Positions 1,334-24,017 of a DNA stretch of 36,861 bases are shown in pieces. Numbering within the stretch: position 1 is the first letter of the stretch; each line of letters opens with the position of its first letter. Below the pieces are notes generated by a model, which saw nothing but the letters and a program-made list of their open reading frames with translations, searched no databases and was not told where the DNA came from. The DNA is taken from positions 427,408 through 464,268 of the forward strand of contig NZ_JH165061.1 of assembly GCF_000227315.1 (NCBI RefSeq). Direction: 5' to 3'. The stretch comes from Peptoniphilus indolicus ATCC 29427. Lineage in GTDB: Bacteria > Bacillota > Clostridia > Tissierellales > Peptoniphilaceae. A program made the translations under genes and the position numbers.

Positions 1334-1346
1334 GAGGAAATGTATA

Positions 1347-4422: not shown

Positions 4423-4777
4423 ATTAGGATACGTAGATGAAGCAGAAAAGATAATAAAAAATTTAAGTGAACGAAAACTCTTAAATACAAATCAAATACG
4501 TAAGATACTGAGCAAAGTTTCAGTTATATATGAAAAAGCAAAAAGAAAGACAGGGAATCTTACAGAACAAGAAAAAATGGACTTACAAGTATTAAGAGCA
4601 CACTTAATATATGATTCAGGAAGAGATGAGGGAGTTAGAAGATTTGTAAGTGAAGCAAAACTAGTAGAAAATATCAAAGAAATAGGAGATAGCCGAGAAA
4701 AATTATTAATATTTTGTGGATATATGGAAGCATTGGTAGCATATCATAAGTACTATTTAGCAAATAAGAGTAATTAA
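4412..4777 (+). CDS. csm2: Csm2, small helical subunit of the Csm complex
   Basis: Csm2 is the small all-helical subunit that lines the inner filament of the type III-A complex next to Csm3 and contacts the crRNA-target duplex. The protein has 121 residues and contains the family block LRAHLIYDSGR followed by a VRRFV stretch. The N-terminal half is lysine-rich and helical. The ATG overlaps the end of cas10 by 11 nt, so translation is probably coupled. Csm3 starts 14 nt after its stop. Confidence 0.9.
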   Translation: MISKLGYVDEAEKIIKNLSERKLLNTNQIRKILSKVSVIYEKAKRKTGNLTEQEKMDLQVLRAHLIYDSGRDEGVRRFVSEAKLVENIKEIGDSREKLLIFCGYMEALVAYHKYYLANKSN

Positions 4778-4791
4778 TAAAGGAGTATAAA

Positions 4792-5454
4792 ATGTACGGG
4801 AAAATAGAAATAACAGGAAAAATCAGATTAATAACAGGACTTCATATAGGAGGCTCAGTAGAATTCTCAGCAATAGGAGCAGTAGATTCACCAGTTATGA
4901 GAGATACACTCACAAATGACCCGTTTATACCGGGAAGTTCACTAAAAGGAAAACTTAGATATTTGTTACAAAGACAATATCAAAGAAATATTGATGTAAG
5001 TGGAAGACACGAAAATGATGAACCGGAAGTTTTAAGACTATTTGGCTCAACAAACACAAACGAAGAAAATAGAATTAGCAGATTATATTTTTCTGATGCT
5101 TTCATATCAAATAAAAAAGATTTAGAAAAAATAGGCATAGAATCTATAACAGAAGTTAAGTTTGAAAACTCAATAAACAGGTTCACAGCAGTAGCAAATC
5201 CAAGACAGATAGAGAGAGTTATAAGAGGCGCTGAATTTGATTTAGAAATAATCTACAACATACAAAACGAAGAAGAAATAGAAGAAGACTTTGAAATACT
5301 AAAAGAAGCATTTAAACTTTTAGAATTTGACTATCTAGGAGGGAGTGGATCAAGAGGATATGGAAGAGTAAAAATAGAAAATATAGAAATTAATATGGCA
5401 GTAGGTGATTATGAAAATATAGAAAAGCTTAGAGAAATTATGGGAGAAGTATGA
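4792..5454 (+). CDS. csm3: Csm3, RAMP backbone subunit and target-RNA nuclease
   Basis: Csm3 forms the multi-copy backbone of the Csm complex and cleaves target RNA at 6-nt intervals. AAGGAG lies just upstream of the ATG. The N-terminal block AVDSPVMRD places D32 at the position of the known catalytic aspartate of Staphylococcus epidermidis Csm3. PFIPGSSLKGKLR is the conserved RAMP loop, and the C-terminal glycine-rich loop reads GGSGSRGYGRVKI. The 220-residue length is typical. Its stop overlaps the csm4 start (ATGATGA). Nothing suggests loss of function. Confidence 0.95.
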   Translation: MYGKIEITGKIRLITGLHIGGSVEFSAIGAVDSPVMRDTLTNDPFIPGSSLKGKLRYLLQRQYQRNIDVSGRHENDEPEVLRLFGSTNTNEENRISRLYFSDAFISNKKDLEKIGIESITEVKFENSINRFTAVANPRQIERVIRGAEFDLEIIYNIQNEEEIEEDFEILKEAFKLLEFDYLGGSGSRGYGRVKIENIEINMAVGDYENIEKLREIMGEV

Positions 5455-6362
5455 TGAAGTACAAGATATATAAATTGTATTTCAAGACAGGGCTTAGAAT
5501 AGGAAATGGGAAAATAGATAGTAGTGTAGTAGAAATTCCGGCGGACATAATATTTTCAGCAATAATAAATGAAGCGGCTCAAGATGAAGAAAAAATAGAA
5601 ACTATACTAGAAGAATTTAAAAATAGAAAGTTAATTATAAGTAACGCATTTCCGTTTATAGGAGAAGAACTATTTTTACCTAAGCCACTTTTGAATATAT
5701 CAGACAATATAGGAGACTCAACAGAGAAAAAACTGTATAAAAAAATAAATCACATTCCACTAAGCTTATGGAATGAATATATAAAAGGAAAGTCAAACCC
5801 TAAGGAAATCGTAAAATTAAATAAAAAATTAGGGAAATCAGCACTGGATACCAAAATCTATAAAAAAGACGAAAATGAAATATATAACTTATCATACTAT
5901 AGATTTTACGAAGGAAACGGATTGTATTTTATCTTGGGCTATGAAGAAGACTATGAACTATTTGATGACATTCTCTATTCTTTGAGTTTTACAGGAATAG
6001 GAGGCAAAAAGACATCAGGATTAGGCAAATTTGAAATGGAAGAAGATGACATACCAGAAAATCTAAAAAATAAATTAAATAATGAAAAATCAAAAATGTT
6101 ACTCGCATCAAGCATGGCAAGAATAGAAGAACTTGAAACACTAGATCAAGAAGCAAAATATAAAATAATTAGGAGAGGTGGTTTTTCATACAGTCAAGAT
6201 ATAAGAGGAAGTAAAAAGCCGACATTTAAAAAACATACAATGTATTATTTCGATACAGGCTCTATATTTAATAATAAATTTGAAGGGGATATATTTGAAA
6301 TAGGAGAAAATGAATATCATAAAATTTATAGATATGGAGTACCTTTATGGATGGAGGTGTAA
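5451..6362 (+). CDS. csm4: Csm4, RAMP subunit at the crRNA 5' end
   Basis: Csm4 caps the 5' end of the crRNA and joins Cas10 to the Csm3 backbone. The protein has 303 residues. It carries the Csm4-type opening (YKLYFKTGLRIGNG), a central LSFTGIGGKKTSGLGKF glycine-rich segment and the C-terminal blocks YYFDTGSIF and YRYGVPLWMEV. Two adjacent ATG codons (5451 and 5454) overlap the csm3 stop, and either could be used. The stop is followed after 1 nt by the TTG start of csm5, whose ribosome binding site GGAGG (6353-6357) lies in the last codons of csm4. Confidence 0.92.
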   Translation: MMKYKIYKLYFKTGLRIGNGKIDSSVVEIPADIIFSAIINEAAQDEEKIETILEEFKNRKLIISNAFPFIGEELFLPKPLLNISDNIGDSTEKKLYKKINHIPLSLWNEYIKGKSNPKEIVKLNKKLGKSALDTKIYKKDENEIYNLSYYRFYEGNGLYFILGYEEDYELFDDILYSLSFTGIGGKKTSGLGKFEMEEDDIPENLKNKLNNEKSKMLLASSMARIEELETLDQEAKYKIIRRGGFSYSQDIRGSKKPTFKKHTMYYFDTGSIFNNKFEGDIFEIGENEYHKIYRYGVPLWMEV

Positions 6363-6363
6363 C

Positions 6364-7460
6364 TTGAAAAATTATATAGTAACATTAAAAACAAAAGGGC
6401 CGGTATTTATAGGAAGTGGAGAGACAAAGAATAAGAGCCAATATATATACGATATGAATAGATCGGAAGTACACGTAATAGATGAAAACAAATTTTTAAC
6501 TTGGCTAGTTAAAAAAGGACTACTATCAGAATACGAAAAAAATTTTTTATACACTAAAGATAATAAAGACTTATATGAATGGTTTAAGAGAGTTGCACCA
6601 ATGCAGAGAGTAGAAGATTTTTCAGCCTATAAATTAAGTGCGAAGTCTTTATCAAATTATGAAAAAAAGAGATTAAACGATATCCAAACATTTGTAAAAG
6701 ACGCTTATGGAATGCCTTATATACCGGGAAGCAGCTTAAAAGGAGCTATAAGAAATATATTATTTAGCTATAAAATGAAAAATACTCAGAATCGAACATT
6801 CCAAGAATATTTAAACTCAGAAGATAATAATAGAAATAGAATAAGACGATTAGAAAAAATGGCTAATAATATTGATAAAGCAGCATTTGAATTTGAGGTA
6901 GATGAAAAAATAAAGATAGCTATATGAAATATATATCCATTTCAGATAGTGAACCGATAGATATAGAAAATTTAATATTTGCAAGAAAAATTGACAGAAG
7001 AACAGATGGAAAAGAAAAATTACTACCAGTATACAGAGAAGCCATAAAACCAGAAGTAGAAATTAAATTTACATTAAATATTGATGAAAGATTTCCATAC
7101 AATATAGAAGATATAAAAGAAGCAATAAAAGAATTTGAATCTGTAGTTTACGAAAAATTCATAAGAAATTTTAAGATTTCAAAAAAAGAAGACTTAAAAA
7201 TATATATAGGAGGAGGTGTAGGTTATCAATCCAAAACTTCAGTCTATAACCTTATAAGAGATAAGAAAATTAGTACAAAAATAGTTAGTAGAATATTAGA
7301 CGATAAATTTAATTATAAAAAAAGAAATAACGATACAAAAAATATCCACGAAGACGACTGGAAAAAAGGAGTTTCTCCAAGAGTAATAAAACTAACAAAC
7401 TATAACAATCGAAAATTTGAAATGGGACTATGCAGTATAAAGTTTGAGGAGATAAAATAA
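6364..7460 (+). pseudogene. csm5: Csm5, RAMP subunit, split by a 1-nt frameshift
   Basis: Csm5 caps the 3' end of the crRNA in the Csm complex. The first frame starts at TTG 6364 (GGAGG at 6353-6357) with KNYIVTLKTKGPVFIGSGE, carries IPGSSLKGAIRN and stops at 6927. The second frame (6924-7460) begins MKYISISDSEP, then has the RAMP glycine loop (IYIGGGVGYQSKTSVYNL) and the family C-terminus KFEMGLCSIKFEE. Together they give one Csm5 of normal length, about 365 residues. The break is at the A6 run 6905-6910. One extra A would read VDEKNKDSYMKY straight through. As written, ATG 6924 overlaps the first stop as ATGA, so reinitiation could also give two half-proteins. Given the other A-run shifts in this window, an assembly error is the simplest explanation. 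Cas1 follows with no gap. Confidence 0.88.
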
Positions 7461-8450
7461 ATGATTTTATTAATAACAGAACAAGGAAGTAACGTTCGAA
7501 TAAATAACGACAGGATTGTAATGGAGACTGACGACTTAAAAAGAAGCGTACCTAAAGAATTGATAGAAAATGTAGCGGTATTTGGAAATGTACAACTTAG
7601 CACACAATTTATTCAACATTGTCTAAAAAGAAAGATAACAGTTTCATTTTATTCTAACACAGGAGAATACTTTGGTAAATTAGTAAATACATCGAGCGGA
7701 AATTTCAAACGGTTAAAACTCCAGATAGAAGCAATAGAAGACGAAGAATTTAGAAGAAAATTTGCAGAAAAAATAATTGAAAATAAAATTAATAACCAAT
7801 TAACACTACTTAGAAGGTTGAACCGAAGACGAAATATAGTAGATAAAGAAATAGAAGAAATAGGAATAATAAAGAGAAAAATTACACAAAAAGATAACGT
7901 GGACCAAATGTTGGGATACGAAGGAGCAATTTCAAGAATATATTTTAGAGCACTATCCAAAATATTGCCCGAAGAATTCAAATTTGACAAGAGAACAAGA
8001 CAGCCTCCAAGAGACCCGTTTAATTCAATGATAAGCTTGGGTTATACAATATTATTACACGAAATAATAGGCCAGATAGAAAGCGTAGGACTATCACCTT
8101 ATGGGGGAATAATACATGGACATAGATTAAATCATCCATCGTTGGGGAGTGATATGTTAGAGGAGTACAGAGCAATAATAGTAGACGCATTTGTAATGGA
8201 TTTAATAAACTCAGGTAGCACAAAAATAGAAGATTTTGAAATTACAAGAGAAGGAGTATTTTTAGAACCTAAATTTTTAAAAGAATTCTTAAAAAAATTT
8301 CAGGAAAAATTGGCATCAACACATAAATATATCGACGAAATAGAAACGCCAATAACATACAGAAAGACACTATACCATCAAACAACTAAATTAGTAAGAG
8401 CTATAGAAAATAAAAATATCGAAGAATATAACCCAATAAGAATAAGGTAG
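7461..8450 (+). CDS. cas1: Cas1 integrase of CRISPR spacer acquisition
   Basis: Cas1 with Cas2 integrates new spacers at the leader end of the array. The 329-residue protein has the N-terminal beta-sheet domain (opening MILLITEQGSNV) and the helical catalytic domain. The metal-binding residues are visible: E154 in MLGYEGA, H219 in GIIHGH, and D231/E234 in PSLGSDMLEEYR. The ATG follows the csm5 stop directly, with GAGGAG (7447-7452) in the last csm5 codons as ribosome binding site. Nothing appears truncated, so acquisition could be active despite the short array. Confidence 0.95.
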   Translation: MILLITEQGSNVRINNDRIVMETDDLKRSVPKELIENVAVFGNVQLSTQFIQHCLKRKITVSFYSNTGEYFGKLVNTSSGNFKRLKLQIEAIEDEEFRRKFAEKIIENKINNQLTLLRRLNRRRNIVDKEIEEIGIIKRKITQKDNVDQMLGYEGAISRIYFRALSKILPEEFKFDKRTRQPPRDPFNSMISLGYTILLHEIIGQIESVGLSPYGGIIHGHRLNHPSLGSDMLEEYRAIIVDAFVMDLINSGSTKIEDFEITREGVFLEPKFLKEFLKKFQEKLASTHKYIDEIETPITYRKTLYHQTTKLVRAIENKNIEEYNPIRIR

Positions 8451-8458
8451 GATGAATT

Positions 8459-8782
8459 ATGCAGAAAGACTTTCTTATAAAAGCAAAAGAAGATATTTTC
8501 TATGAAGAAAAACACCTAATTTTGATAATTTATGATATAGTAGATAACAAAAGAAGGAATAAATTTTTTAAACTATTATCAGGATATATGATATCGGTTC
8601 AAAAATCTTGTTTCGAATCACATTTAACAGAAAGTGAATTCGAAAAATTAGCTTACAGAATCCCATTCTATATAGATAAAGAAGAAGATAATGTACGCTG
8701 TTACAAATTATCAGCTCATGGGAAAGTTTATAACTTTGGAAGTGAAAAGAATGATGCCATAGAAGATATAGTTATATTTTGA
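8459..8782 (+). CDS. cas2: Cas2, structural partner of Cas1
   Basis: Cas2 forms the dimer at the centre of the Cas1-Cas2 integration complex. The ferredoxin-like fold begins at LILIIYDI, with the conserved Asp at the end of the first strand, followed by KRRNKFFKLLSGY and VQKSCFE. Compared with common Cas2 proteins (about 90 residues starting just before the first strand), this one has about 20 extra N-terminal residues. No later ATG, GTG or TTG precedes the first strand in frame, so the extension appears genuine. The gene is the last of the cas operon, 8 nt after cas1, and it directly precedes the leader. Confidence 0.93.
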   Translation: MQKDFLIKAKEDIFYEEKHLILIIYDIVDNKRRNKFFKLLSGYMISVQKSCFESHLTESEFEKLAYRIPFYIDKEEDNVRCYKLSAHGKVYNFGSEKNDAIEDIVIF

Positions 8783-8908
8783 CCGATGGCTTAAAATCAA
8801 GAGATAGGGCCTTAAATTAAAAAATTATTCAGATAAAATCTATAAAAACAACCCCTGTCCGCAAAGTCATTTTACAATCCAGCAAATTCAACATCTATAA
8901 AGGACAGG
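8783..8908 (+). promoter_or_regulatory. CRISPR leader
   Basis: This AT-rich 126-nt stretch separates cas2 from the first repeat. The degenerate repeat at the far end of the array supports this side being the leader. TATAAA at 8841-8846 is a possible -10 element, with no clear -35. A perfect 8-bp inverted repeat, CCCTGTCC (8853-8860) and GGACAGGG (8902-8909), encloses 41 nt, and its right arm touches repeat 1. CCCCTGTC (8852-8859) is also the reverse complement of GACAGGGG inside every repeat. Confidence 0.6.
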
Positions 8909-9248
8909 GAAAAAACAAAAAAATCCCCGACAGGGGACGGAAACATGAAATCCTTGGTATTACCAAATTTTTCAATAATGAAAAAACAAAAAAATCCCCG
9001 ACAGGGGACGGAAACTTTTCCTTAATAGAATATGAATGTTTAGAGTTAGAAGCTAAAACTGAAAAAACAAAAAAATCCCCGACAGGGGACGGAAACGTTA
9101 AATTTTCAGCTTTTATAAAGCCGATTTCTTCAATTCGAAAAAACAAAAAAATCCCCGACAGGGGACGGAAACTATTTTACCTGTATGTCCGCAAGCATAC
9201 GTGTCTTCAAATGAAAAAACAAAAAAATCCCCGACAGGGGATAGAAAC
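8909..9248 (+). CRISPR. CRISPR array, five 36-nt repeats and four spacers
   Basis: Repeats lie at 8909-8944, 8980-9015, 9061-9096, 9137-9172 and 9213-9248. Spacers are 35, 45, 40 and 40 nt. Each repeat has a GAAAAAAC start, a TCCCC-GACA-GGGGA hairpin and an ACGGAAAC end. Cutting at the base of the hairpin would leave the 8-nt handle ACGGAAAC, as in type III systems processed by Cas6. Repeats 1-4 are identical. The last repeat ends GATAGAAAC instead of GACGGAAAC (two changes), the usual sign of the leader-distal terminal repeat. The array lies directly behind cas1-cas2 and is transcribed in the same direction. Confidence 0.97.
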
Positions 9249-14578: not shown

Positions 14579-15766
14579 ATGGATAATTTAAAACTTGCAA
14601 GAGAAAATGAAAGTTATGCTGTCGAAGTTAGAAGAGAGTTGCATAAGATTCCCGAGCTTGAACTTGAGCTTCCAAAGACTGTAGAGTTTATAACCGGTAA
14701 ACTTAAAGAACTTGGTGTTGAATACAAGTTGCTTGTAAATGGAAATGCCATTGTGGCGACAGTTGAAGCGAATGATACAAATGGTCCTTGTATTGGAGTT
14801 AGAGCTGATATGGATGCTTTGCCAATTAAAGAGGAGACAGGACTTGAATTTTCATCAACTCACGAGGGAAAGATGCACGCTTGTGGACATGACGGACATT
14901 CGGCTATGGCGCTTACAACTCTTAAAATTTTGGCTGAGAACAGAGACTCTTTTAAAGGAAAAGTAAAATTTTTATTCCAACCGGGAGAGGAAATTCCGGG
15001 CGGTGCTAAACCTATGATTGACGAGGGGGCTCTTGAAGACCCGAAGGTAGATTATATTATTGGACTTCACGAAGGTGGACTTGTAAAGGGAATGGACAAG
15101 GGAGCTATTTATTTTAAAGAGGGTTCTATGATGGCCTCAATGGATAAATTTACTATAAAGGTGAAGGGTAAAGGCGGACATGGAGCAAATCCTCAAGATA
15201 CGATAGACCCGGTTGTAATTTCAGCTGAAATAATATTGGCGGTTCAAAAGATAGTATCTCGTGAGATAGCACCTACTTCATCTGCACTTATATCAATTTG
15301 TCAAATAAATGGTGGAAGCAGCCAAAATATTATACCTGACGAAGTAGTGCTTGTTGGAACGGCGAGAACTTTAAATGAAAAGGACAGAGATACTGTAGAG
15401 AGTAGATTAACAGCAATATGCAAAGGTGTTGCCAGAACTCATGGCGGAGATGCTGAAGTGGATTACAACAGAATGTATCCTGTACTTGTAAATGATCCTG
15501 AGGTTACTAAGTTAGTGAAGGGCGTAGCAACGGAACTATTCCCGGAAGATGTTAGAGAACTTGAAACTGCAAATATGGGAGGAGAAGATATGGCGTTTTT
15601 CTTACAAAAAGTACCGGGATGCTATTTTTTCATGTCGAATTTAAAAGAGGTTGATGGAAAGATATATCCTCATCACAATTCTAAGTTTGATGTCGATGAA
15701 TCTGAGTTTTACAAGGGAATTGCAATATTTTTAGATACAATTAGAAAATTAGGGGAGATTAAATGA
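14579..15766 (+). CDS. M20 family amidohydrolase (hippurate/N-acyl-amino-acid hydrolase type)
   Basis: Members of this M20D-type group remove acyl or amide groups from amino acids or small peptides using two metal ions. ATG 14579 is chosen over the in-frame GTG 14519 because AAAGGAGG (14564-14571) sits 7 nt upstream. The 395-residue protein has RADMDALPI (D77/D79), MHACGHDGH (H100, C102, H104), FQPGEE and the C-terminal YPHHNSKFD block, so the metal ligands are present. The stop overlaps the next gene by 4 nt. Two small membrane proteins in the same operon suggest uptake of the substrate followed by hydrolysis. A second, distinct M20 gene lies at 25117. Confidence 0.9.
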   Translation: MDNLKLARENESYAVEVRRELHKIPELELELPKTVEFITGKLKELGVEYKLLVNGNAIVATVEANDTNGPCIGVRADMDALPIKEETGLEFSSTHEGKMHACGHDGHSAMALTTLKILAENRDSFKGKVKFLFQPGEEIPGGAKPMIDEGALEDPKVDYIIGLHEGGLVKGMDKGAIYFKEGSMMASMDKFTIKVKGKGGHGANPQDTIDPVVISAEIILAVQKIVSREIAPTSSALISICQINGGSSQNIIPDEVVLVGTARTLNEKDRDTVESRLTAICKGVARTHGGDAEVDYNRMYPVLVNDPEVTKLVKGVATELFPEDVRELETANMGGEDMAFFLQKVPGCYFFMSNLKEVDGKIYPHHNSKFDVDESEFYKGIAIFLDTIRKLGEIK

Positions 15767-16533
15767 AAAATATAAAACTACATTTGATAGCTCTTGTGAT
15801 AGTAATTATTGCAGAGTTAATAGGAAAGCATTCATTCGACATAGGAATAGGTAAAATTGTACTGTTACCAATGCTGTTTGCATTGATTATAGGCGTACTT
15901 ACTACACCAAAATTTTTAAAAATTTCATCAGAAAAAGAAATGGTGGATGCGGGCTCTCTAATTGCATTCACACTAATGCTTTTGATGGCTAAGTATGGAA
16001 CTACTATAGGACCTACTATTTCAGTTATTGTAAAATCATCTCCAGCACTTATACTACAAGAATTTGGTAATTTGGGGACAGTATTGCTAGGGGTTCCTCT
16101 GGGAATAGCTTTAGGATTAAACAGAGAAGTTATAGGTGGAGCACACTCAATAGCAAGAGAGCCAAACATAGCTGTAGTTTCAGAAAAATATGGTTTGGAT
16201 TCAGAAGAAGGTCGAGGAGTTTTGGGAGTTTATATTGTGGGAACAGTTTTTGGAACTATTCTTATCGGACTTCTTGCAGGTATACTTGCAACTTCAACAC
16301 CACTTCACCCTTATGCACTTGCAATGGCAAGTGGAGTTGGAAGTGCGTCAATGATGACTGCTTCAGTTGGTACTCTTGTTGAGTTATATCCTGATATGGA
16401 ACAGATGATAACAGCTTTTGGAGCTTCGTCAAATTTACTTTCAGGACTTGATGGAGTGTATATGTCTGTATTTATAGCATTGCCTTTGGCAGAAAAGCTG
16501 TATGCAAAACTTAAAAGGGGGAATAACAAATGA
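15763..16533 (+). CDS. DUF3100 family integral membrane protein
   Basis: This 256-residue membrane protein has about seven to eight hydrophobic segments. The conserved-looking stretches include LLMAKYGTTIGP, LGTVLLGVPLGIALGLNREV, IGGAHSIAREP and MASGVGSASMMTA. I recognise it as DUF3100, a family often placed beside M20 amidohydrolases. The ATG overlaps the amidohydrolase stop by 4 nt, and its own end overlaps the following membrane gene by 4 nt. Tight coupling suggests that the two membrane proteins form one transporter for the amidohydrolase substrate. The transport role is inference. Confidence 0.75.
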   Translation: MKNIKLHLIALVIVIIAELIGKHSFDIGIGKIVLLPMLFALIIGVLTTPKFLKISSEKEMVDAGSLIAFTLMLLMAKYGTTIGPTISVIVKSSPALILQEFGNLGTVLLGVPLGIALGLNREVIGGAHSIAREPNIAVVSEKYGLDSEEGRGVLGVYIVGTVFGTILIGLLAGILATSTPLHPYALAMASGVGSASMMTASVGTLVELYPDMEQMITAFGASSNLLSGLDGVYMSVFIALPLAEKLYAKLKRGNNK

Positions 16534-16982
16534 AATTAAAACTTAAGGAAGCAATAATCGTCCTTTTAATTACAGGAGCTTTAACTGTTGTAGGTAATTT
16601 AGTGGGACTTGGAACCAGTCCAATGAAATCTATACCGGGAGTTTTGATATTAGTTTTATTCTCAATTATTGGAATTGGACTTGCAGAAATTATTCCGGTT
16701 AAAATTCCGGCAGTTGCATATATAGTTACAATAGCTACAATTTTTACAATACCCGGAGTTCCTTTTTCAGAAATTGTATCAGAACACACTGCAAATGTTG
16801 ACTTCTTATCTCTCTGTACACCAATACTTGCATACGCAGGTATCTACACAGGAAAAGATATAGACCAACTTAAAAAGACAGGACCGAAGATAATAGTTCT
16901 TGCAATAGTTGTAATGCTTGGAACATACTTGGGTTCAGCAATTATAGCACAAGGTATTTTAAAATTATTGGGACAAATTTAA
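16530..16982 (+). CDS. Small membrane protein, partner of the DUF3100 protein
   Basis: This 150-residue protein has about four to five membrane segments, rich in Ile, Val, Leu and Gly, with a short polar region around EIVSEHTANVD. I do not recognise a family. The ATG overlaps the DUF3100 stop by 4 nt (GGGGG just upstream), so equal production of both is likely. Together they look like the two halves of a small secondary transporter. It is the last gene of the operon, and a bidirectional terminator follows. Confidence 0.7.
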   Translation: MKLKLKEAIIVLLITGALTVVGNLVGLGTSPMKSIPGVLILVLFSIIGIGLAEIIPVKIPAVAYIVTIATIFTIPGVPFSEIVSEHTANVDFLSLCTPILAYAGIYTGKDIDQLKKTGPKIIVLAIVVMLGTYLGSAIIAQGILKLLGQI

Positions 16983-16990
16983 GTATAAAG

Positions 16991-17053
16991 ACACCCCTAT
17001 AACTGTTTCGTTACCTTTTGGTAAGGGAGTCAGTTTAGGGGTGTTAAATTTTT
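16991..17053. terminator. Bidirectional terminator between convergent operons
   Basis: ACACCCCTATAACTG (from 16991) pairs with CAGTTTAGGGGTGT (to 17044), with an inner hairpin GTTACC/GGTAAG. T-rich sequence follows on the + strand (to 17053), and the complement of AAAG/TATA sequence lies on the other side. It separates the + strand membrane-protein operon from the - strand redox operon. Confidence 0.8.
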
Positions 17054-17460
17054 TCTAAAATTTCTATTGATGTAAAGATTGCATTAGGACACACTTTTTC
17101 AAGCAGACCTTGATTTATAATTTTTTCAAGACCGTCTTTTGCGGAGATATCTTCTCCAAGTAAATCTCTACAAAGTATTGAATTATATTTTTCTTTAAAG
17201 AGCTTATTGAATTCATTTATCTTCGATTCCATTATTTGACGGTGGTCAGGTTTATCTGAGCCGTATTTTAATCCCAATACCATATATGCACCACACACAG
17301 CGCCGCAAGTTGTGCCTTGGAATTGTCCACTTTCAAAAGCTTCGGCAATTCTTTTTGCAGCGAGATGGTCTAGGTTAAATTCTTCGGCAAAGTAGCACAA
17401 GACACTTTGACTACAATTGTATCCGTTGGTTAAAAATTTCATAACTAATTCTCTATTCAT
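17044..17460 (-). CDS. C_GCAxxG_C_C family probable redox protein
   Basis: This 138-residue cysteine-rich protein has the family pattern C16...C22, then TTCGAVCGAYM (C52, C56), and later cysteines in SILCRDLLG and KVCPNA. Members are thought to be redox or metal-cofactor proteins and are often encoded beside Fe-S oxidoreductases. AGGAGA precedes the ATG. It is the last gene of the seven-gene - strand operon, 2 nt after the CCG-domain Fe-S protein, and probably works with it in electron transfer. The exact reaction is unknown. Confidence 0.85.
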   Translation of the reverse strand: MNRELVMKFLTNGYNCSQSVLCYFAEEFNLDHLAAKRIAEAFESGQFQGTTCGAVCGAYMVLGLKYGSDKPDHRQIMESKINEFNKLFKEKYNSILCRDLLGEDISAKDGLEKIINQGLLEKVCPNAIFTSIEILEKI

Positions 17461-17462
17461 AT

Positions 17463-18393
17463 TTATCTCCTGGAGTCTTTAAATTTAAAATACAGACTGT
17501 TTTTTAATGTATTTGATGACGGTTCTTCACATGCACCTAAAATTTCAGACAAAATATTTTTTATATTTGAAATTCCATATTTGTCAAAAGCGTGAGAGCA
17601 AGAAGAGCAGTAAGTGTATATACAACTTTTCTCTTTAGCTAAAATTTGTGACTTTATTTCATTTCCAATATCTTTATTTTTGGACAAAACTCCACCGCCC
17701 AAACCACAACAGTTTATATCAGAGAAAGAGTCTTGGTATGAATGTAAGAAAGGCTTTATATATTTAAAAATTTCTAAGTTGTACTTATCTGAACATGGAA
17801 AGAATATGTCAGCAGATTCCATAATAGTTGAGCCGATATTTTCTTGTTTTAAAAATTCATACACACTTATAACTTCAATTGATAGGTTATCTTTTAAAGT
17901 ATGGTAGCAATTTGGACATAGACATATTAATTTTTCAGTACTTTTTAATTTTAATAAATCATCAAGCCTTGAAGTTGGTGCAACTCCGTTTTCATAGAGC
18001 GGTTTTCTGCAACATTCAACTGAAAAATCTATGTCTTTATCCCTGCAGATGGATATTAATTTTTCACAAGTCTCAGGATAGTATTTAGGATAGTTACAAC
18101 CTAAAAATAAGAGAGTTTTACTTTTTTATCTGAGTTGTTGTTGAATATATAAGGGTCTTTTGAGAGAGTTATTAAAAATTTATTTTTTGATTTAGATTTA
18201 AATTTCTTTGTGATTTCAGCTCCCGACAAATCTTTAGGACAATAGTGCCTACACGAATCACACATAAAGCATTCATTTTTTAGGTCTTCTCTTGAAGTAT
18301 AATCTTTTAAATTTAAGTTGTACTTCTTTAAAAAACTACAATGTTTTGTACACAGATTACAGTTTATGCACTCTCTTTTAGTTTTTCAATCAT
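17463..18393 (-). pseudogene. CCG-domain (Fe-S) oxidoreductase (HdrB/GlpC-like), two frameshifts
   Basis: The gene would encode about 310 residues: two 4Fe-4S motifs (CINCNLCTKHC and CFMCDSCRHYCP), then two cysteine-rich CCG domains (CC...CPNC near the middle, and CCGLGGG with YTYCSSC at the end), the layout of GlpC/HdrD-type electron-transfer subunits. ATG 18393 lies 1 nt after the glycosyltransferase stop with AGGAGA upstream. Two single-base losses break the frame: in the A4 run of the coding strand (18379-18376) and the A6 run (18127-18122). Adding one A at each restores KLKRECINC and DKKSKTLLFLGCN. Only the last 133 codons (from 17864) remain as a clean frame. Because the rest is undamaged, an assembly error is more likely than decay. 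Confidence 0.82.
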
Positions 18394-18394
18394 T

Positions 18395-19045
18395 TTAATA
18401 TCTCCTGTAAATTTCGTCTATATCATGTGATTTTCGATATTTATATTGTAGTAATTGCATTTTTAGTACAGTCTTCCAAATTCCATTCTCTTCAAATCTT
18501 CTTGCAGAGGTGGTTATCGGAAGAGGAGAAAGATAGAATTTCTTTCCTAATTTTTTCAAATCCATTGACAGTTGGTAGTCTTCCATAAGAGGTATTGGAG
18601 CATATCTTCCAATTTTTTCAAACAAATCTCGTTTTATAAATATTCCCTGGTCCCCAAAAGCTATATTCCTAAATTTAACTCTTAGAGAGCTATTGAATGC
18701 GACCATTGACATTTGCCATTTTGGAGAGTCAAAGGCAAGGGTAAAGCACCCTACATCTGAGTTTGAATTTTCTATCTCCAAGATTGAATCCTCATGAATT
18801 TTAGAATCGGCGTGTAGAAACCAAAGGTAGTCGCCTTTAGAATATTTGACAGCCGAATTCATCTGATTGCTTCTATATTTAGACTCTTGTATTTTTGGAA
18901 AGTAGATTTTTTCATAAGTGTTATCAGTGCTGAATCCATCCGAAAAAATAACTTCAAAGTCACCTTTAAGTGTTTCTAGTTGTTTTTGAAACTCTTCAAT
19001 TTTTAAAGACTCATTATATGTTGGAATTATTATCGAAATCATCAT
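18395..19045 (-). CDS. Family 2 glycosyltransferase, TIGR04283 type
   Basis: This 216-residue GT-A enzyme opens with ISIIIPTYNE, has DGFSTDNT and a DxD-like FLHADSK, followed by FGDQGIFI and PLMEDYQLS. This compact form matches the TIGR04283 group (called rSAM/selenodomain-associated transferase 2 or arsenosugar glycosyltransferase). The start could be either of two adjacent ATGs. The second (19042) has better spacing from GAGG. The start overlaps the TVP38 gene by about 30 nt. A TIGR04282-type partner lies in the same operon (20355-21818). Donor and acceptor are unknown. Confidence 0.82.
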   Translation of the reverse strand: MMISIIIPTYNESLKIEEFQKQLETLKGDFEVIFSDGFSTDNTYEKIYFPKIQESKYRSNQMNSAVKYSKGDYLWFLHADSKIHEDSILEIENSNSDVGCFTLAFDSPKWQMSMVAFNSSLRVKFRNIAFGDQGIFIKRDLFEKIGRYAPIPLMEDYQLSMDLKKLGKKFYLSPLPITTSARRFEENGIWKTVLKMQLLQYKYRKSHDIDEIYRRY

Positions 19046-19688
19046 TACCTCTGTTTATATAAATTTTTGCAAAGACAGTAGAAACCAACACAAGCGCTAT
19101 TAACAAGAAAATTGAAACAATAAATTCACTGCTATTCGTGTTTAGTGATTTATCTCCGGTGTTTAAAAACACTAGCATACCTGGAATTATTCCCAAGATA
19201 GTTGTGATGATGTAGTTTAGATAGCTTATCTTTGTGAAACCCGCCACATAGTTTATCAAGTTGTAAGAAACTAAGGGGACTAATCTGAGAATGAAAAATA
19301 GATAAAAAAGAGATTTTTGCTCAGAGTGTAAGAGACGGTTTTTTAAATTGGGTTGTATTTTTGAAATTAGTTTTTCAAAGAAATCTTGTCCTAAAAATCT
19401 ACCGAGGTAAAACATAATTGTACTGTTTAAGGTACACCCAATCATTGTGTAGATAAATCCGTTCCAAATTCCAAATAAGATTCCTGCAACTAATACAAAA
19501 ATTGGAACTGGAAAAAAGAAGATAGGGAGTATTGTGTAGAGTAATATGTAAACAATTGGAGCTGAGTTTCCAAATTCATTCACCCAATTTCTCAGTGACT
19601 CAAACGAAGCTATCTTTATAATGAAAATTGAGCCTATTAGAATTAATAGGCTGATTATTATTTTAGTTAGATTTTTTAAGTTTTTCAT
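19014..19688 (-). CDS. TVP38/TMEM64 family membrane protein (second copy)
   Basis: This 224-residue membrane protein belongs to the DedA-like SNARE-associated superfamily. The core has FYLGRFLGQDFFEKLI, then RLVPLVSYNLINYVAG, the family's re-entrant motif, flanked by about five hydrophobic segments. It overlaps its paralogue upstream by 26 nt and the glycosyltransferase downstream by 32 nt. DedA-superfamily proteins are linked to lipid-carrier or phospholipid flipping. A role in moving a lipid-linked product of the two transferases across the membrane is plausible but is inference. Confidence 0.85.
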   Translation of the reverse strand: MKNLKNLTKIIISLLILIGSIFIIKIASFESLRNWVNEFGNSAPIVYILLYTILPIFFFPVPIFVLVAGILFGIWNGFIYTMIGCTLNSTIMFYLGRFLGQDFFEKLISKIQPNLKNRLLHSEQKSLFYLFFILRLVPLVSYNLINYVAGFTKISYLNYIITTILGIIPGMLVFLNTGDKSLNTNSSEFIVSIFLLIALVLVSTVFAKIYINRGNDDFDNNSNI

Positions 19689-20352
19689 TGTACATACTCT
19701 TCGCTACAAAAATTGCTATACTTATTGCAAATAATATTAAAAGTCCCGTCATCATTGTCTTAGCGCCACCGGTTAAAGTTCCACCAACATATGAGTAAAC
19801 TATAGTTGCCGGCAATTGACCTATGCCGGTTGCAATGAAGAAAGGCCAAAATTTCATAGATGTAAGTCCGGCTGCATAACTTACAATGTCAAAAGATACA
19901 AACGGAAGTAGTCTTGCAATTAAAATTACATACTTGTCATATCTTGCAAAGAAGTCATCAACTGATTTTAAAGCTGTTTTGGAAATTAGTTTTTCAACAA
20001 AATCGCGTCCTAAGATCTTTGCTATGTAGAAGCACATTGCAGCGCCTACCATCGCGGAACTCCAAGATAGAATTGCACCTTTGATCCAACCGAATATGGC
20101 TGCGTTTGAAAGTGTAATTAAAAAAGCGGGGATGGGACTTATGATAGATTGTAAAATCATAAGTAAGAAAGATACTGCAGCTGCGTATTTTCCATAGCCT
20201 CTTATATATTCTATTACTCCATCAACTCCCATTGTTGAAAGTATTTTGATTGCATCGTTAACTGATTGATTTACACTTGGTACAAGCAGGTATACTACTA
20301 AAAACAGTAGTAGTGTTAAAATTAAAAATATTTTAGGTGTATGTTTTTTCAT
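19663..20352 (-). CDS. TVP38/TMEM64 family membrane protein (first copy)
   Basis: This 229-residue paralogue of the following gene has the same core: FYIAKILGRDFVEKLI, then RLLPFVSFDIVSYAAG and GQLPATIVYSYVGG. There are about five membrane segments, beginning with a signal-anchor-like helix. It starts 2 nt after the fused transferase gene. Having two TVP38 copies side by side suggests a heterodimer or two related substrates. Confidence 0.85.
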   Translation of the reverse strand: MKKHTPKIFLILTLLLFLVVYLLVPSVNQSVNDAIKILSTMGVDGVIEYIRGYGKYAAAVSFLLMILQSIISPIPAFLITLSNAAIFGWIKGAILSWSSAMVGAAMCFYIAKILGRDFVEKLISKTALKSVDDFFARYDKYVILIARLLPFVSFDIVSYAAGLTSMKFWPFFIATGIGQLPATIVYSYVGGTLTGGAKTMMTGLLILFAISIAIFVAKSMYNEKLKKSN

Positions 20353-20354
20353 AT

Positions 20355-21818
20355 TTAAACCTCATAAAATCTTTTATGTAACATTTTCAAATAATCTTCG
20401 CTTAAAAATTTATTAATTTTTTCATAGGTATCTTGATTAGAAAGTATTCTTTCTGAAGCTTCGTATTCAACTTTTGCCATACTGCACCAAGTTATGCCGC
20501 GCAAGACATTAAAGGCAAAATATTTTTTTAGTTTTTGTCTATTTATTTTACGATACTTTTCATATTTATATATAAATTTTTCTATTTCAGAATCAGAAAG
20601 AATTTTATCTGTCTTCCAATTTGTAGTAGTGGGAACTAAGAAGTGAGCCAAATCCTGTTCAGCTTCACCGATTAGAGGTTTCTCCCAATCTATTATGTAA
20701 GAATTATTACCATTGATTATGAAATTTCTGTTGTTTAGTTCGGTGTTTATAATGCAAGGGTTTGAAATGTTATCTTTAATGCCAAGTTCTTTTACATAGT
20801 CAAAAAAATGCTCTATATATTTTCCAATTGAATTATTATAAATTTTAGAATTTTTATAAACTGAATACATTTCAAAACATTCTTCAAACATAGCCTTAAA
20901 AGGTTGTTCAACGCGAATTAAGTCTGTATCTTTAAATTCGAGGTTGTGTACTCTTGAAAGTAGATATGCAGCAATGGACATATCTGTGTCATAGTTGAGT
21001 GGACGACCTACTAAATAGTCCATAACTAAAAACCCCTTGCGAATGTAAGTTGAATTCTTTTTTAAGTAATGTGGCTTTGGAGTTACACCTGATGACTCAA
21101 GTGTTTTGAGGGCATTGTATTCGTATGTAATTTGCTCATCTCCAAGGTGCAGTTGACTTCCCAAGTTAATTCGACATACAAAATTTTTGTTAAATCTATA
21201 GTTTAAGTTATATTCTCCGCTTCCAAGAATCTCAACATCTTTTGTTTGTAGTTCTTCTTTTATTAAATCTATAATTTCATCAATATCTCTCACTGTATCA
21301 AGCCTTTCAATTGAAATATCAAGCGCAGTTGCTTTTTGTAAAGTTTTTTCAAAGACATCTGATTGGCTGTAGACTATGTTAGAAAATAAATCTAAAGGTT
21401 TTCTAAGTCCTATTAAACCATAGCCACCATCTTCTGCAGGTGCTATAACACAATCTGAATTATTTAGTCCTGAGAAGGCACTTTCAATTAATTTTAAAGT
21501 TATTCCTCTCAGGTCAGAACCCAAGAGGATAACTTGGTCATTTGAATTTAATTCAGCTTTTAAAGCGTTAAACATTCTATCCCCCAAATTTTCTCCTCTT
21601 TGAGGGATTTTTTCATAATCTATAAAGTTTAGGTTTTCGATATCTCCTGAAAAGTATACGACAAATTCATAACCTGATTTTTCAAGCACTTTTAAGTTAT
21701 CCTTTATTAAAAATACAGATAGTTCATATCTATCTTTTGCAGATAGAAAATTTTTCAGTCTTGATTTGCCATAATTGAGAGCAGGAGCTTTTGTAAAAAA
21801 AATAATTTTTCTCTTCAT
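20355..21818 (-). CDS. Fusion: TIGR04282-type (DUF2064) transferase and kinase-like domain
   Basis: Residues 1 to about 190 form a nucleotidyl/glycosyl-transferase-like DUF2064 domain: FTKAPALNYGKSRL, LLGSDLRG and IAPAEDGGYGLIGL. Residues from about 195 form an aminoglycoside/choline phosphotransferase-like domain: GSGEYNLNYRF, then VCRINLGSQ, and YIIDWEKPLIGEAEQDLAHF at the end. The catalytic loop reads N358-T-E360-L-N-N-R-N365 where HxDxxxxN is expected, so the catalytic Asp is Glu and the His is Asn. The metal-binding Asp (D377 in IDWE) is kept. At 487 residues the gene carries both units without a break. It lies between the rhodanese lipoprotein and the TVP38 genes. The acceptor is unknown, and the altered loop leaves kinase activity uncertain. 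Confidence 0.8.
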   Translation of the reverse strand: MKRKIIFFTKAPALNYGKSRLKNFLSAKDRYELSVFLIKDNLKVLEKSGYEFVVYFSGDIENLNFIDYEKIPQRGENLGDRMFNALKAELNSNDQVILLGSDLRGITLKLIESAFSGLNNSDCVIAPAEDGGYGLIGLRKPLDLFSNIVYSQSDVFEKTLQKATALDISIERLDTVRDIDEIIDLIKEELQTKDVEILGSGEYNLNYRFNKNFVCRINLGSQLHLGDEQITYEYNALKTLESSGVTPKPHYLKKNSTYIRKGFLVMDYLVGRPLNYDTDMSIAAYLLSRVHNLEFKDTDLIRVEQPFKAMFEECFEMYSVYKNSKIYNNSIGKYIEHFFDYVKELGIKDNISNPCIINTELNNRNFIINGNNSYIIDWEKPLIGEAEQDLAHFLVPTTTNWKTDKILSDSEIEKFIYKYEKYRKINRQKLKKYFAFNVLRGITWCSMAKVEYEASERILSNQDTYEKINKFLSEDYLKMLHKRFYEV

Positions 21819-21864
21819 AGTATAAAGTGTAGAGGTTATTTAAATTTTATACAAGAATTTAAAA

Positions 21865-22596
21865 TTATTTTTCAAGAGTAAATTCAAATTCTTTAGTTCC
21901 GTCAAGAGAGTTCTTAACGTCTTTGTATCCGTTCTTAACTAAAGTTTCAGCAGCAACTGTTGATTTATTTCCCGAATAACAATAAGTTACAACTCCCTTA
22001 TCCATTGGGATGTCTGCTAAAGCTGCTTCGATGCCATCAACAGGAATGTTTATAGCACCTTTTAAATGACCAGCTTCATAGTCTTTAGCATCTCTAACAT
22101 CAATGATAGTATTGCTACCATCATTTGCATCAGCGATAGCTTGAAGTTCAGAACCAAATATATTTTCTATTTGAGACATAGTAGTATATTCGAAATCTTT
22201 AACTCCTTGAGCATTGAATACATTTGTGTATCCGTTTGCAACTAGAATTTCAGCAGCCTTTAAGCTCTTTTTACCTGTGTTACAAACTGTAACAACATTT
22301 TTATCTTTGAAGTCTGCAATTCTATCAAGATTTTCTTCGAATGTTTCGATATCCATGTTGATAGCAAATTTAACGTGACCGGCATCATATTCTTCTTTAC
22401 TTCTCACATCGATAACAAGATAATTTTCTTTTTCTTTCTTATCTTCCATAATCTTGTCAAGTTCAGCGCCTTCCATAGTTTGAACTGTGGCAGTTTTTTC
22501 AGCAGCGTCTTCAGTTTTAGGTTGGTTTTTAGCACAACCAACAACGAATAGTGTAAGAGTTGCAATTATAGCAACTAATGATAAATACTTTTTCAA
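21865..22596 (-). CDS. Lipoprotein with two rhodanese domains
   Basis: This is a surface-anchored sulfurtransferase-like protein. TTG 22596 is chosen as the start because GGAGG (22608-22604) is 7 nt upstream. The ATG at 22602 would be only 1 nt from it. The signal peptide ends in the lipobox VVGC (Cys21). Two rhodanese domains follow, each with a candidate catalytic Cys: VTVCNTGKKS (Cys105) and VTYCYSGNKS (Cys206). The DVRSKEEYDAGH and DVRDAKDYEAGH blocks are typical. It is first in the - strand operon and would act outside the membrane, perhaps carrying persulfide or selenium-type groups. Its partners are the transferases and TVP38 proteins that follow. Confidence 0.88.
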   Translation of the reverse strand: MKKYLSLVAIIATLTLFVVGCAKNQPKTEDAAEKTATVQTMEGAELDKIMEDKKEKENYLVIDVRSKEEYDAGHVKFAINMDIETFEENLDRIADFKDKNVVTVCNTGKKSLKAAEILVANGYTNVFNAQGVKDFEYTTMSQIENIFGSELQAIADANDGSNTIIDVRDAKDYEAGHLKGAINIPVDGIEAALADIPMDKGVVTYCYSGNKSTVAAETLVKNGYKDVKNSLDGTKEFEFTLEK

Positions 22597-22665: not shown

Positions 22666-22795
22666 CAATAAATTAAAAATTCCTCAAAACCACTCGGTTT
22701 ATATAAATTTTTATCAATATATTTTGAAAATAATAATAAAATTAAAAAATGAGACATAATGTTATCATAAATATTAAAAAATAAGTAATAAAAAT

Positions 22796-22832
22796 AGGTA
22801 ATATGAGAGATTAGATTTCTTTCATATTACCT
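22796..22832 (-). terminator. Terminator of the ATP-grasp gene
   Basis: AGGTAATATGA and TCATATTACCT form a perfect 11-bp stem with a 15-nt loop. Read on the - strand it is followed by ATTTTTATT. It lies 5 nt beyond the restored stop of the ATP-grasp gene (22838), which supports that stop as the true gene end. Confidence 0.8.
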
Positions 22833-22907
22833 ACTTTCTATTTAAACATTCTTTTTAATTTACTGCTTATTGCCCACTTAAAGAAAGTCCAGCCCGGTCC
22901 GATATCG

Positions 22908-24017
22908 TCACTTGCCCAAGTTGAGCTGACTTTTTTTGAATCTGTAATCTGAAATAATTTTGCCCCAAGTCATTTGACCTGTGCTCAAATATCTCTTGAT
23001 TGCAGGAATATCTTCGTATTTATATTTCCAGTGAGTTTCTGTATTTTTTCTGATTTGTGCACCGGATACTTTTTCTCCTAAAGAGTCCAAGAAGTACATC
23101 ATAGGTGAGTTGAAACCAAGTTGACAAAGCATTTCTGTGAAGTTTATAAATCTCACGTTTACTTCGACTAAGTATATTTTATTATTTCTTTCATCTCTTT
23201 TTAATTCAACTTCTGCGAAACCTTTGTAGTTTACACTTTTGAAAAGAGGCGAGCATAAATCGTATAACTCTGGAATGTACTCTTGCTTAGCGTAAGTACT
23301 TGCTCCGAAATTTATTGGCCACTGTCTGATTTTTGATGTAGTTAAAAATGCCTTTACTTCGTTATCTTGCATATACATATCAAATGAATAACAATTGCTT
23401 TCAGGGCCTTTAACTATACGTTGTACAAATACATCTTGATTATCCTTTTTACAAATTTCCATTTTTTCTCGAAGTTCTGCCTCTGAATTTATAAAGAACA
23501 TTTTTTCTCTGTATAAATTTACAAAAGGCATTGAATCACGAGGTTTTAAAACACAAGGATATCCAAGCTCTTCAGTTGCTCTTGCGTATAGATTAGGGTC
23601 GTCCATTGGAATTATCTCCGGAGTTGGAATATTTAATGGCTCAGTATATTTTAAAAGGCTTTCTTTGTCCATTAACTCTGTGAGTAGACCCTTTTGGTCA
23701 TTTGGCCATAGATAATATTCTTTAAGCGCATCAAAGTTGTTTTCCATGAATTCGACATATAAGTCGGCTGTGGGGAATAGAACTGGCTTAGCGCTTTGCT
23801 TTTTTGAGTAATCTATTAAAAATTCAACAAGATTTTTTTCATCATTTTTGTAGTGAGGAGCAATAAGTCTTTCGTTTACATATTTAGAAACACCATAGTG
23901 TGATGGTTCGTAGTCTACGGTAGTAACTTGAACTCCATTTCGACCTAAATTTCTAACAACAGCAAGACCTATGTAATAATTGGTTCCTAAAACTACTGCT
24001 TTGTGTTTATATTTCAT
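22908..24017 (-). CDS. ATP-grasp carboxylate-amine ligase-like protein (C-terminus frameshifted)
   Basis: This is a single-gene ATP-grasp enzyme. The N-terminus is a nucleotide-fold domain (VLGTNYYIGLAVVRNLGR), followed by YPCVLKPRDSM (ATP-binding lysine), FVQRIVKGPESNCYSF and AEVELKRD...YLVEVNVRF (metal-binding Glu/Asn). The ligated substrates are unknown. The class includes carbamoyl-phosphate-like and peptide-bond-forming ligases. The written frame stops at 22908, but reading the A7 run (22937-22931, coding strand) as A6 continues the protein as FKKVSSTWASDD, GPGWTFFKW and KLKRMFK to a TAG at 22838. That gives about 392 residues, ending next to the terminator. GGAGGTG precedes the ATG. Confidence 0.82.
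   Translation of the reverse strand: MKYKHKAVVLGTNYYIGLAVVRNLGRNGVQVTTVDYEPSHYGVSKYVNERLIAPHYKNDEKNLVEFLIDYSKKQSAKPVLFPTADLYVEFMENNFDALKEYYLWPNDQKGLLTELMDKESLLKYTEPLNIPTPEIIPMDDPNLYARATEELGYPCVLKPRDSMPFVNLYREKMFFINSEAELREKMEICKKDNQDVFVQRIVKGPESNCYSFDMYMQDNEVKAFLTTSKIRQWPINFGASTYAKQEYIPELYDLCSPLFKSVNYKGFAEVELKRDERNNKIYLVEVNVRFINFTEMLCQLGFNSPMMYFLDSLGEKVSGAQIRKNTETHWKYKYEDIPAIKRYLSTGQMTWGKIISDYRFKKSQLNLGK

Follow-up and report, generated by a model that had tools for sequence, protein, structure and literature searches.

A conserved operon of Peptoniphilus indolicus as the possible common back end of a pathway for sugar activation and glycosyl transfer that has two alternative front ends

The stretch of DNA analyzed here (the window, 36,861 nucleotides of Peptoniphilus indolicus ATCC 29427) carries seven protein families in one tight cluster on the minus strand, from ~22596 to 17044. 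In 5' to 3' order, this operon encodes a double-rhodanese lipoprotein, a fusion of a DUF2064/TIGR04282 domain with an APH-type kinase, a VTT (TVP38) pair, a TIGR04283 glycosyltransferase, a CCG Fe-S protein, and a C_GCAxxG_C_C protein. We propose, with a probability of roughly 0.4, that this operon provides the back end common to two versions of a pathway for sugar activation and glycosyl transfer. These versions would differ in their front ends, one built on ArsS and the other on a YnjBCD-type importer with a nucleoside hydrolase. The gene content of the operon, its conservation, the co-occurrence of its families, and the alternation of the front ends are observed directly in the genomes compared below.

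Conservation was assessed in a family sample of 130 genomes, 42 of which carry the operon (41 exceed the TIGR04283 cut-off of 182 bits, and G069 reaches 170.6 bits), and the loci of 40 of these were fetched (G069 was not; G000 is the window's own genome). Counting the best label per open reading frame (ORF) and scoring the DUF2064-kinase fusion if either half was found, all seven families are present in 20/40 fetched loci and at least five families in 37/40, while 13/40 hold all seven in a single same-strand run; G064, G069, and G087 are only 76% to 84% complete, and some absences may be gaps. The original prediction had stated that a gene order unique to this strain, with no co-occurrence elsewhere, would speak against a common pathway, yet the set recurs across genomes, and this recurrence rules out a strain-specific cluster or a chance grouping. 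Recurrent neighbors, scored on one representative each, are ArsS (TIGR04167, 407.5 bits), a TIGR04169 AhpD-like protein (160.9 bits), a YnjB-type importer (NF008633, 455.8 bits), a nucleoside hydrolase (PF01156, 86.4 bits versus a cut-off of 34.2, a Pfam match scored on a relative of the protein in the window's genome), and a second rhodanese. An ArsS-family gene lies inside the fetched stretch in 13/40 loci.

TIGR04282 and TIGR04283 had previously been tied to neighborhoods of ArsS-type radical S-adenosylmethionine (SAM) genes, and the family sample bears this out: ArsS (TIGR04167) is above cut-off in 29/130 genomes, and all 29 are operon genomes with TIGR04283, one of them at 170.6 bits and under the cut-off of 182. 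ArsM-like genes above 140 bits are found in 26/29 ArsS genomes versus 10/101 others, where 140 bits is our own choice of threshold and the curated ArsM cut-off is passed by only 6/130. The YnjB-type importer (NF008633) is above cut-off in 13/130 genomes, that is, in 13/42 with the operon versus 0/88 without it, and among operon genomes it is present in 11/13 that lack ArsS versus 2/29 that have it (Fisher p 1.3e-6). The kinase occurs in 27/130 family genomes, all of them operon genomes, and comprises 13/13 with the importer, 12/27 with ArsS only, and 2/2 with neither front end (13/13 importer genomes versus 14/29 other operon genomes, p 0.001). Both the ArsS and the importer state occur within each of the single genera g3, g5, g13, and g30. 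In the co-occurrence count proposed earlier for selenium genes, selD is above cut-off in 86/130 family genomes and therefore too common to say much about the pathway; selenium machinery was dropped as a marker of the operon on these grounds. As a separate observation, ArsS carries one in-frame TGA in 15/29 genomes above cut-off, which fits selenocysteine, and many ArsM-like matches likewise hold one TGA (examples of TGA-bearing ArsS or ArsM-like matches are found in G016, G020, G032, G051-G053, G083-G085, G101, G104, and G105).

The Fisher tests on co-occurrence ignore phylogeny. A tree of the TIGR04283 proteins from 41 genomes has at least 7 ArsS state changes and 9 importer changes, and its 4 supported independent pairs show ArsS and importer in opposite states in a mean of 3.2/4 and never going the same way (p 0.125 to 0.5, from an underpowered test). 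Beyond the family, a phylum sample of 398 genomes was searched for TIGR04283 (E up to 1e-40), ArsS, and the importer, which were found in 28, 11 (10 with TIGR04283), and 30 genomes (7 with TIGR04283), respectively. ArsS and the importer are together in no genome of this sample (p 0.03 among the 28 TIGR04283 genomes), and the importer is enriched with TIGR04283 (7/28 versus 23/370, p 0.003). Where both genes of a pair are present, the TIGR04283 gene lies at most ~4 kb from ArsS in 9/10 genomes and from the importer in 5/6, with the window's own genome excluded.

A scan for the kinase over one genome per species (84,980 species) returned 358 relatives, and all kinase-locus counts refer to the best 80 of these. 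Because NTE and DWEK patterns served to find these loci, counts of the motifs among them carry a bias; one locus (L145) has no labeled kinase ORF. They span five phyla (71 Bacillota, 4 Actinomycetota, 3 Campylobacterota, 1 Bacteroidota, and 1 Spirochaetota). Strict thresholds are quoted because the GT83 (TIGR04283) and MST profiles also match other GT2 enzymes and rhodaneses, respectively; at these thresholds, the flanks hold GT82 (TIGR04282/DUF2064) in 66/80 loci, GT83 in 65/80, TVP in 61/80, CCG and RHOD in 38/80 each, the nucleoside hydrolase in 37/80, the importer in 32/80, C_GCAxxG_C_C in 23/80, and a second, MST-type rhodanese in 22/80, along with the arsenosugar-type genes ArsS (17/80) and AhpD-like (9/80). 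GT82 is fused to the kinase in 32 ORFs and to GT83 in 6, the latter type of fusion being found also in family genomes G062 and G089, and these fusions tie the three enzymes together. The kinase domain also occurs alone. Importer and hydrolase associate (both in 23 loci, one alone in 14 and 9, neither in 34; p 2e-4), while importer and ArsS are found together only once, at L137 (one alone in 31 and 16, neither in 32; p 0.0015). At L213, importer, kinase, and hydrolase stand side by side in a genome without a TIGR04283 match. Two further observations on these loci were made by eye or within the fetched stretch: 10/80 loci (L125, L130, L132, L133, L135, L137, L149, L155, L159, and L188) encode a protein of ~157 amino acids (aa) with an abrupt end that looks like a selenoprotein B-like protein of glycine/betaine reductase, and six Gemella loci (L123, L124, and L126-L129) hold a minimal variant in which the fetched stretch has no GT83 and encodes only the kinase fusion, a single short TVP protein, and two or three rhodaneses.

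The window's genome (95% complete) belongs to the importer group. Profile searches of it found no ArsS (best 39.1 bits versus a cut-off of 300) and no ArsM (best 43.3 bits versus the NF008823 cut-off of 263), and by these two tests it does not belong to the arsenosugar producers as known; the weak ArsS match lies at L208 among genes that look molybdopterin-like by eye and was rejected as an ArsS elsewhere in the genome. That no radical SAM gene is present in the operon, as stated in the original prediction, thus holds, and it extends to ArsS in the whole genome. No TIGR04169 AhpD-like protein is found among the operon proteins, with no genome-wide search made for it, and selD is above cut-off (348.7 bits). 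About 332 kb from the operon and outside the window, G000:C1:782115-787079 encodes in a row a substrate-binding protein (G000:C1:782289-783485; NF008633, 443.5 bits, cut-off 203), two permeases and an ATPase (these three by eye), and a nucleoside hydrolase; the identical row is present in P. asaccharolyticus of the same genus. The hydrolase fold is predicted from a model (pLDDT 89.5; TM ~0.8 to solved nucleoside hydrolases) with which the profile comparison agrees. In this subfamily, Trp occupies the position that aligns with the His of the HD motif, and a suspected loss of the 5'-OH-binding Asn was dropped because Asn stands there in the protein of the window's genome. Compared to solved structures, the substrate-binding protein gives weak matches only, with the best (E 0.0058) to maltose-binding proteins, from which no substrate class can be inferred.

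The features of the operon and its surroundings in the window are as follows:
21865..22596, minus strand: double-rhodanese lipoprotein (RHOD), PF00581 at 5.5e-35 in two stretches
20355..21818, minus strand: DUF2064/TIGR04282 and APH-type kinase fusion, 487 aa, matching TIGR04282, PF09837, and PF01636
20355..21257, minus strand: kinase half of the fusion, with N-T-E-x-N-x-x-N-F at the HxDxxxxN place, then IDWEK
19663..20352, minus strand: TVP38/VTT membrane protein b, PF09335 at 99.2 bits
19014..19688, minus strand: TVP38/VTT membrane protein a, PF09335 at 90.5 bits
18395..19045, minus strand: GT2-family glycosyltransferase TIGR04283, 212.5 bits, passing the curated cut-off of 182
17463..18395 (outer limits approximate), minus strand: CCG / 4Fe-4S protein, frame broken as assembled, by tblastn and CCG domain
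17044..17460, minus strand: C_GCAxxG_C_C redox protein, TIGR01909 at 63.1 bits (cut-off of 47.4 passed) and PF09719 at 100.4 bits
22657..22665, minus strand: candidate extended -10 promoter (TGcTATAAT) upstream of the operon, by eye
22795..22833, minus strand: terminator-like hairpin between the operon and the upstream ATP-grasp gene, an inverted repeat listed on the plus strand
16985..17043, minus strand: possible terminator past the last gene, by eye, with an 8-bp stem and a long loop

Intergenic spacing in the operon is 46, 2, -26, and -32 bp, with 2 bp ahead of the last gene. The ORF list starts the rhodanese gene at ATG 22602; we prefer TTG at 22596 because GGAGG 7 nt upstream makes it a better fit to a ribosome-binding site, and this start agrees with the end at 22596 given earlier for a same-strand operon of seven families, all of which were found. 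The extended -10 box is not among the calls of a promoter scan, whose count equals that of shuffles. On the minus strand, TTTTTATTA comes directly after the hairpin at 22795..22833, while the loop of the downstream hairpin exceeds the limit of the inverted-repeat scan. The extended -10 box together with this long-loop hairpin downstream of 17044 suggests one transcription unit. The earlier description of the operon is sound apart from two corrections, the kinase domain and the broken CCG frame.

The first of these corrections concerns the protein read as a TIGR04282 transferase, which is above cut-off in its N-terminal domain (143.3 versus 134 bits; PF09837, 77 bits; best solved relative 3cgx, 1.7e-16) but really is a fusion whose kinase domain, the C-terminal ~300 residues, had been overlooked (PF01636, 35 bits, cut-off 23.2). 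The predicted model of this half (pLDDT 93.5) resembles 3dxp, a putative aminoglycoside phosphotransferase (Z 22.5, root-mean-square deviation 2.9 over 275), homoserine kinase (Z 21.5), a choline/ethanolamine kinase family protein (20.9), and N-acetylhexosamine 1-kinase (19.4), and the C-terminal half is predicted to adopt an APH-type small-molecule kinase fold. MTR kinase, which we take to be the expected relative for a 5-modified ribose substrate, is not among the 50 structural matches listed, and this neither supports nor excludes such a substrate. The canonical catalytic motif of APH-type kinases is HxDxxxxN. In 19/19 kinase relatives it is replaced by N-T-E-x-N-x-x-N, and the IDWEK site is kept (N171, T172, E173, N175, N178, and F179 as well as D190, W191, E192, and K193 are invariant); this alignment was drawn from the 40 TIGR04283 loci before the motif-based scan and is thus unbiased for the motif.

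The rhodanese, VTT, and CCG domains are each above their Pfam cut-offs. As read from its translation, the rhodanese lipoprotein has the lipobox VVGC and two CxxGxxS loops, presumably of the type found in sulfurtransferases, and it scores 89.6 bits against NF045521 (rhoda_near_glyco), under the cut-off of 145. A role of the TVP38 proteins as undecaprenyl-phosphate flippases was rejected because protein b (42.7 bits) and protein a (34.7 bits) stay far under the cut-off of 250 of the UptA model NF052604, and an excerpt of PMC10127716 argues against such a role for COG0398 proteins. The TIGR04283 glycosyltransferase gives weak matches to several GT2 enzymes among solved structures, from which no acceptor can be inferred. 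The second correction concerns the CCG-domain oxidoreductase, whose family is present as proposed but whose gene is not intact as assembled: the P. asaccharolyticus relative, an intact ORF of 307 aa, aligns by tblastn in two frames (18385-18104 and 18164-17469), and the listed ORF covers 17463-17864 only, with the CCG domain at 22.1 bits (cut-off 20.6) on that fragment. The frame breaks sit in or near A runs, and the neighboring ATP-grasp gene (22830-24017, minus strand; ORF 22908-24017) shows, by eye, an apparent frame change near its 3' end at an A run. Together, these point to a homopolymer sequencing error, and the CCG frame break is likely an artifact of the assembly.

The importer also provides a link to E. 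coli K-12, where b1750-b1757 comprise ydjX (DedA), ydjY (4Fe-4S), ydjZ (DedA), ynjA (AhpD-like), ynjBCD (ABC importer), and ynjE (rhodanese). An excerpt of PMC3688515 names FNR as a direct activator of ydjXYZ-ynjABCD and ynjE and lists the ydjXYZ-ynjABCD products as predicted proteins, while an excerpt of PMC10215317 describes the physiological substrate of YnjE as unclear. Profiles built from family loci match YdjX (142 bits), YdjZ (235), YnjB (262), and YnjE (262), the TVP profile being built from 74 TVP proteins of these loci; YdjY and YnjA have no match to the family CCG and AhpD profiles. Conversely, the E. coli proteins are matched in 62 (YdjX), 8 (YdjY), 62 (YdjZ), 0 (YnjA), 32 (YnjB), 31 (YnjC), 42 (YnjD), and 26 (YnjE) of the 80 kinase loci. 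YdjY, YnjB, and YnjE are the telling matches, since YdjX and YdjZ share their matching loci, and YnjC and YnjD resemble many ABC proteins. Seven of the eight E. coli proteins have matches in each of four Facklamia loci (L132, L135, L137, and L188), which also carry the kinase fusion, GT83, and the nucleoside hydrolase.

For the proposed pathway, we infer every catalytic step as well as substrate, product, and acceptor. The first step would be the uptake of a nucleoside-like compound through a YnjBCD-type ABC importer, whose genes lie outside the operon at another site of the genome. From this compound, the nucleoside hydrolase encoded beside the importer would release a sugar; the kinase domain of the fusion would phosphorylate the freed sugar, and the fused DUF2064 (CofC-like) domain would make a nucleoside diphosphate (NDP)-activated sugar. 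Bifunctional salvage enzymes such as FKP and HldE combine a kinase and an NDP-activation reaction in this way. The TIGR04283 GT2 enzyme might then pass the activated sugar to an acceptor, perhaps a lipid, and the TVP38 pair might move the lipid or product, while the rhodanese lipoprotein, the CCG protein, and the C_GCAxxG_C_C protein may act on a soft-element group such as a thiol or a sulfane. In relatives, ArsM and ArsS would replace the importer front end by supplying an adenosylated arsenic compound. This order of steps (import or ArsS, base removal, kinase, nucleotidylation, transfer, membrane) is in keeping with the classes of the enzymes, with their fusions, and with the way the front ends alternate. 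The original prediction that the operon makes and moves a sugar is partly supported and was a fair guess, given the conserved set and its links to ArsS-type arsenosugar genes. The suggestion that the product bears sulfur, selenium, or arsenic is not supported, and the window's genome has neither ArsS nor ArsM. Its further statement that no pathway with exactly this set had been described agrees with our literature search, which found none, although NCBIfam already names some of the parts (TIGR04282 and TIGR04283 as "arsenosugar biosynthesis glycosyltransferase" and the rhodanese family NF045521 as "rhoda_near_glyco"); in the open-license literature searched, nothing was found on arsenosugar assembly after ArsS.

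Several observations weigh against this proposal. Operon genomes with neither front end (G036 and G037) or with both (G020 and G032) exist, 11/28 TIGR04283 genomes of the phylum sample have neither, and 23/30 importer genomes of that sample have no TIGR04283 match. Such a kinase is missing from 15/29 ArsS family genomes, so the two branches may not share their chemistry, and the ArsS branch would have to use another kinase or skip phosphorylation. With just 4 independent pairs, the tree test cannot reach significance, and with HxD replaced by N-x-E, kinase activity is not assured. E. coli keeps the importer without kinase or hydrolase in the operon and without TIGR04283, and the importer may therefore serve another purpose. 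The hosts of the operon are, we assume, anaerobes. This conflicts with the published reading of COG0398 DedA proteins as aerobic, as given in an excerpt of PMC10127716.

Among other explanations, an arsenosugar (lipid) pathway proper, in which other organisms make an arsenosugar or arsenic-bearing nucleoside that the importer brings in and the back end works as in ArsS genomes, appears unlikely, even though TIGR04282 and TIGR04283 are named after arsenosugar genes, TIGR04283 is in all 29 ArsS family genomes, and ArsM-like genes follow ArsS as described above. Oxo-arsenosugars are made by cyanobacteria according to an excerpt of PMC12159101, and Synechococcus elongatus alone of 14 control genomes passes the TIGR04283 and ArsS cut-offs. 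Against such a pathway stand the lack of both ArsM and ArsS in the window's genome, the few family genomes that reach the curated ArsM cut-off (6/130), the related importer in E. coli, and Pfam and NCBIfam searches that returned no arsenic-specific gene in the operon. A sulfur or selenium route, in which a thio- or selenosugar receives its selenium or sulfane sulfur by way of the rhodanese lipoprotein and the CCG and C_GCAxxG_C_C proteins, seems similarly improbable: the CxxGxxS loops of sulfurtransferase type, the frequent rhodaneses in kinase loci (RHOD 38/80, MST-type 22/80), and selD in the window's genome are consistent with it, but selD is weak evidence at its frequency in the family, and the E. 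coli relative YnjE is poorly active on thiosulfate or 3-mercaptopyruvate according to an excerpt of PMC10215317.

That the stress, membrane, and Fe-S genes have separate tasks and are merely co-located in one cassette is quite improbable; rearranged gene order and missing genes in several lineages would fit, yet the gene fusions and the presence/absence pattern over 130 genomes speak against it. We consider least probable a choline-type decoration, in which a LicA-like kinase and DUF2064 make cytidine diphosphate (CDP)-choline or a related CDP-alcohol for the transferase to add to a surface glycan. The kinase fold does lie near choline kinases and LicA (Z ~19-21), but aminoglycoside, homoserine, and hexosamine kinases score equally, and the nucleoside hydrolase and ArsS neighbors fit it badly.

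A bolder version of our proposal, which we regard as a long shot, is that ArsS-less bacteria import via YnjBCD a modified nucleoside from ArsS-bearing neighbors, remove its base, activate the modified pentose by means of the kinase-nucleotidyltransferase fusion, and attach it to a membrane lipid. If true, the modified nucleoside would be an arsenic-, sulfur-, or selenium-bearing 5'-deoxyadenosyl compound, and the pathway would be a cross-fed counterpart to arsenosugar biosynthesis, with the FNR-controlled ydjXYZ-ynjABCDE operon handling the same compound class. Irrespective of this scenario, the survey adds a kinase, a nucleotidyltransferase, a nucleoside hydrolase, and an importer as companions of the arsenosugar transferases and suggests nucleoside-like compounds as a testable substrate class for ydjXYZ-ynjABCDE. 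It thereby joins two problems, the assembly of arsenosugars after ArsS and the substrate of YnjE, and the proposed steps can be assayed with purified proteins.

Elsewhere in the window, the left end (26-9146) holds by eye a type III CRISPR-like set with Cas1/Cas2-like genes and a repeat-bearing stretch. On the plus strand, 15763-16982 encodes a DUF3100 membrane protein (324.7 bits) followed by a small protein without a Pfam match, and this pair adjoins an amidohydrolase-like gene (by eye).

With known systems, the operon shares different parts. The TVP38 pair, the YnjBCD importer, and the rhodanese have counterparts in E. coli b1750-b1757, and the TVP38 proteins of family loci have the YdjX/YdjZ-type similarity scored above, while the E. 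coli operon itself has no kinase, TIGR04283, or nucleoside hydrolase, unlike the Facklamia loci. The DUF2064 domain is like the CofC/FbiD guanylyltransferases (PF01983, 43.7 bits, cut-off 22) but falls short of the F420 CofC equivalog TIGR03552 (45.1 versus 105 bits). Like the sugar-salvage enzymes FKP and HldE, the fusion has kinase and nucleotidyltransferase on one chain, though we take the families of both domains to differ from theirs, and its altered kinase motif is a contrast to them. With ArsS-type arsenosugar sets, the operon has two transferase families in common, both above cut-offs; unlike these sets, the window's genome has no ArsS or ArsM and instead has the kinase fusion as well as the importer and nucleoside hydrolase. 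We class the operon as a variant of the arsenosugar gene sets of ArsS type, with an importer and a nucleoside hydrolase in the position that ArsS would occupy.

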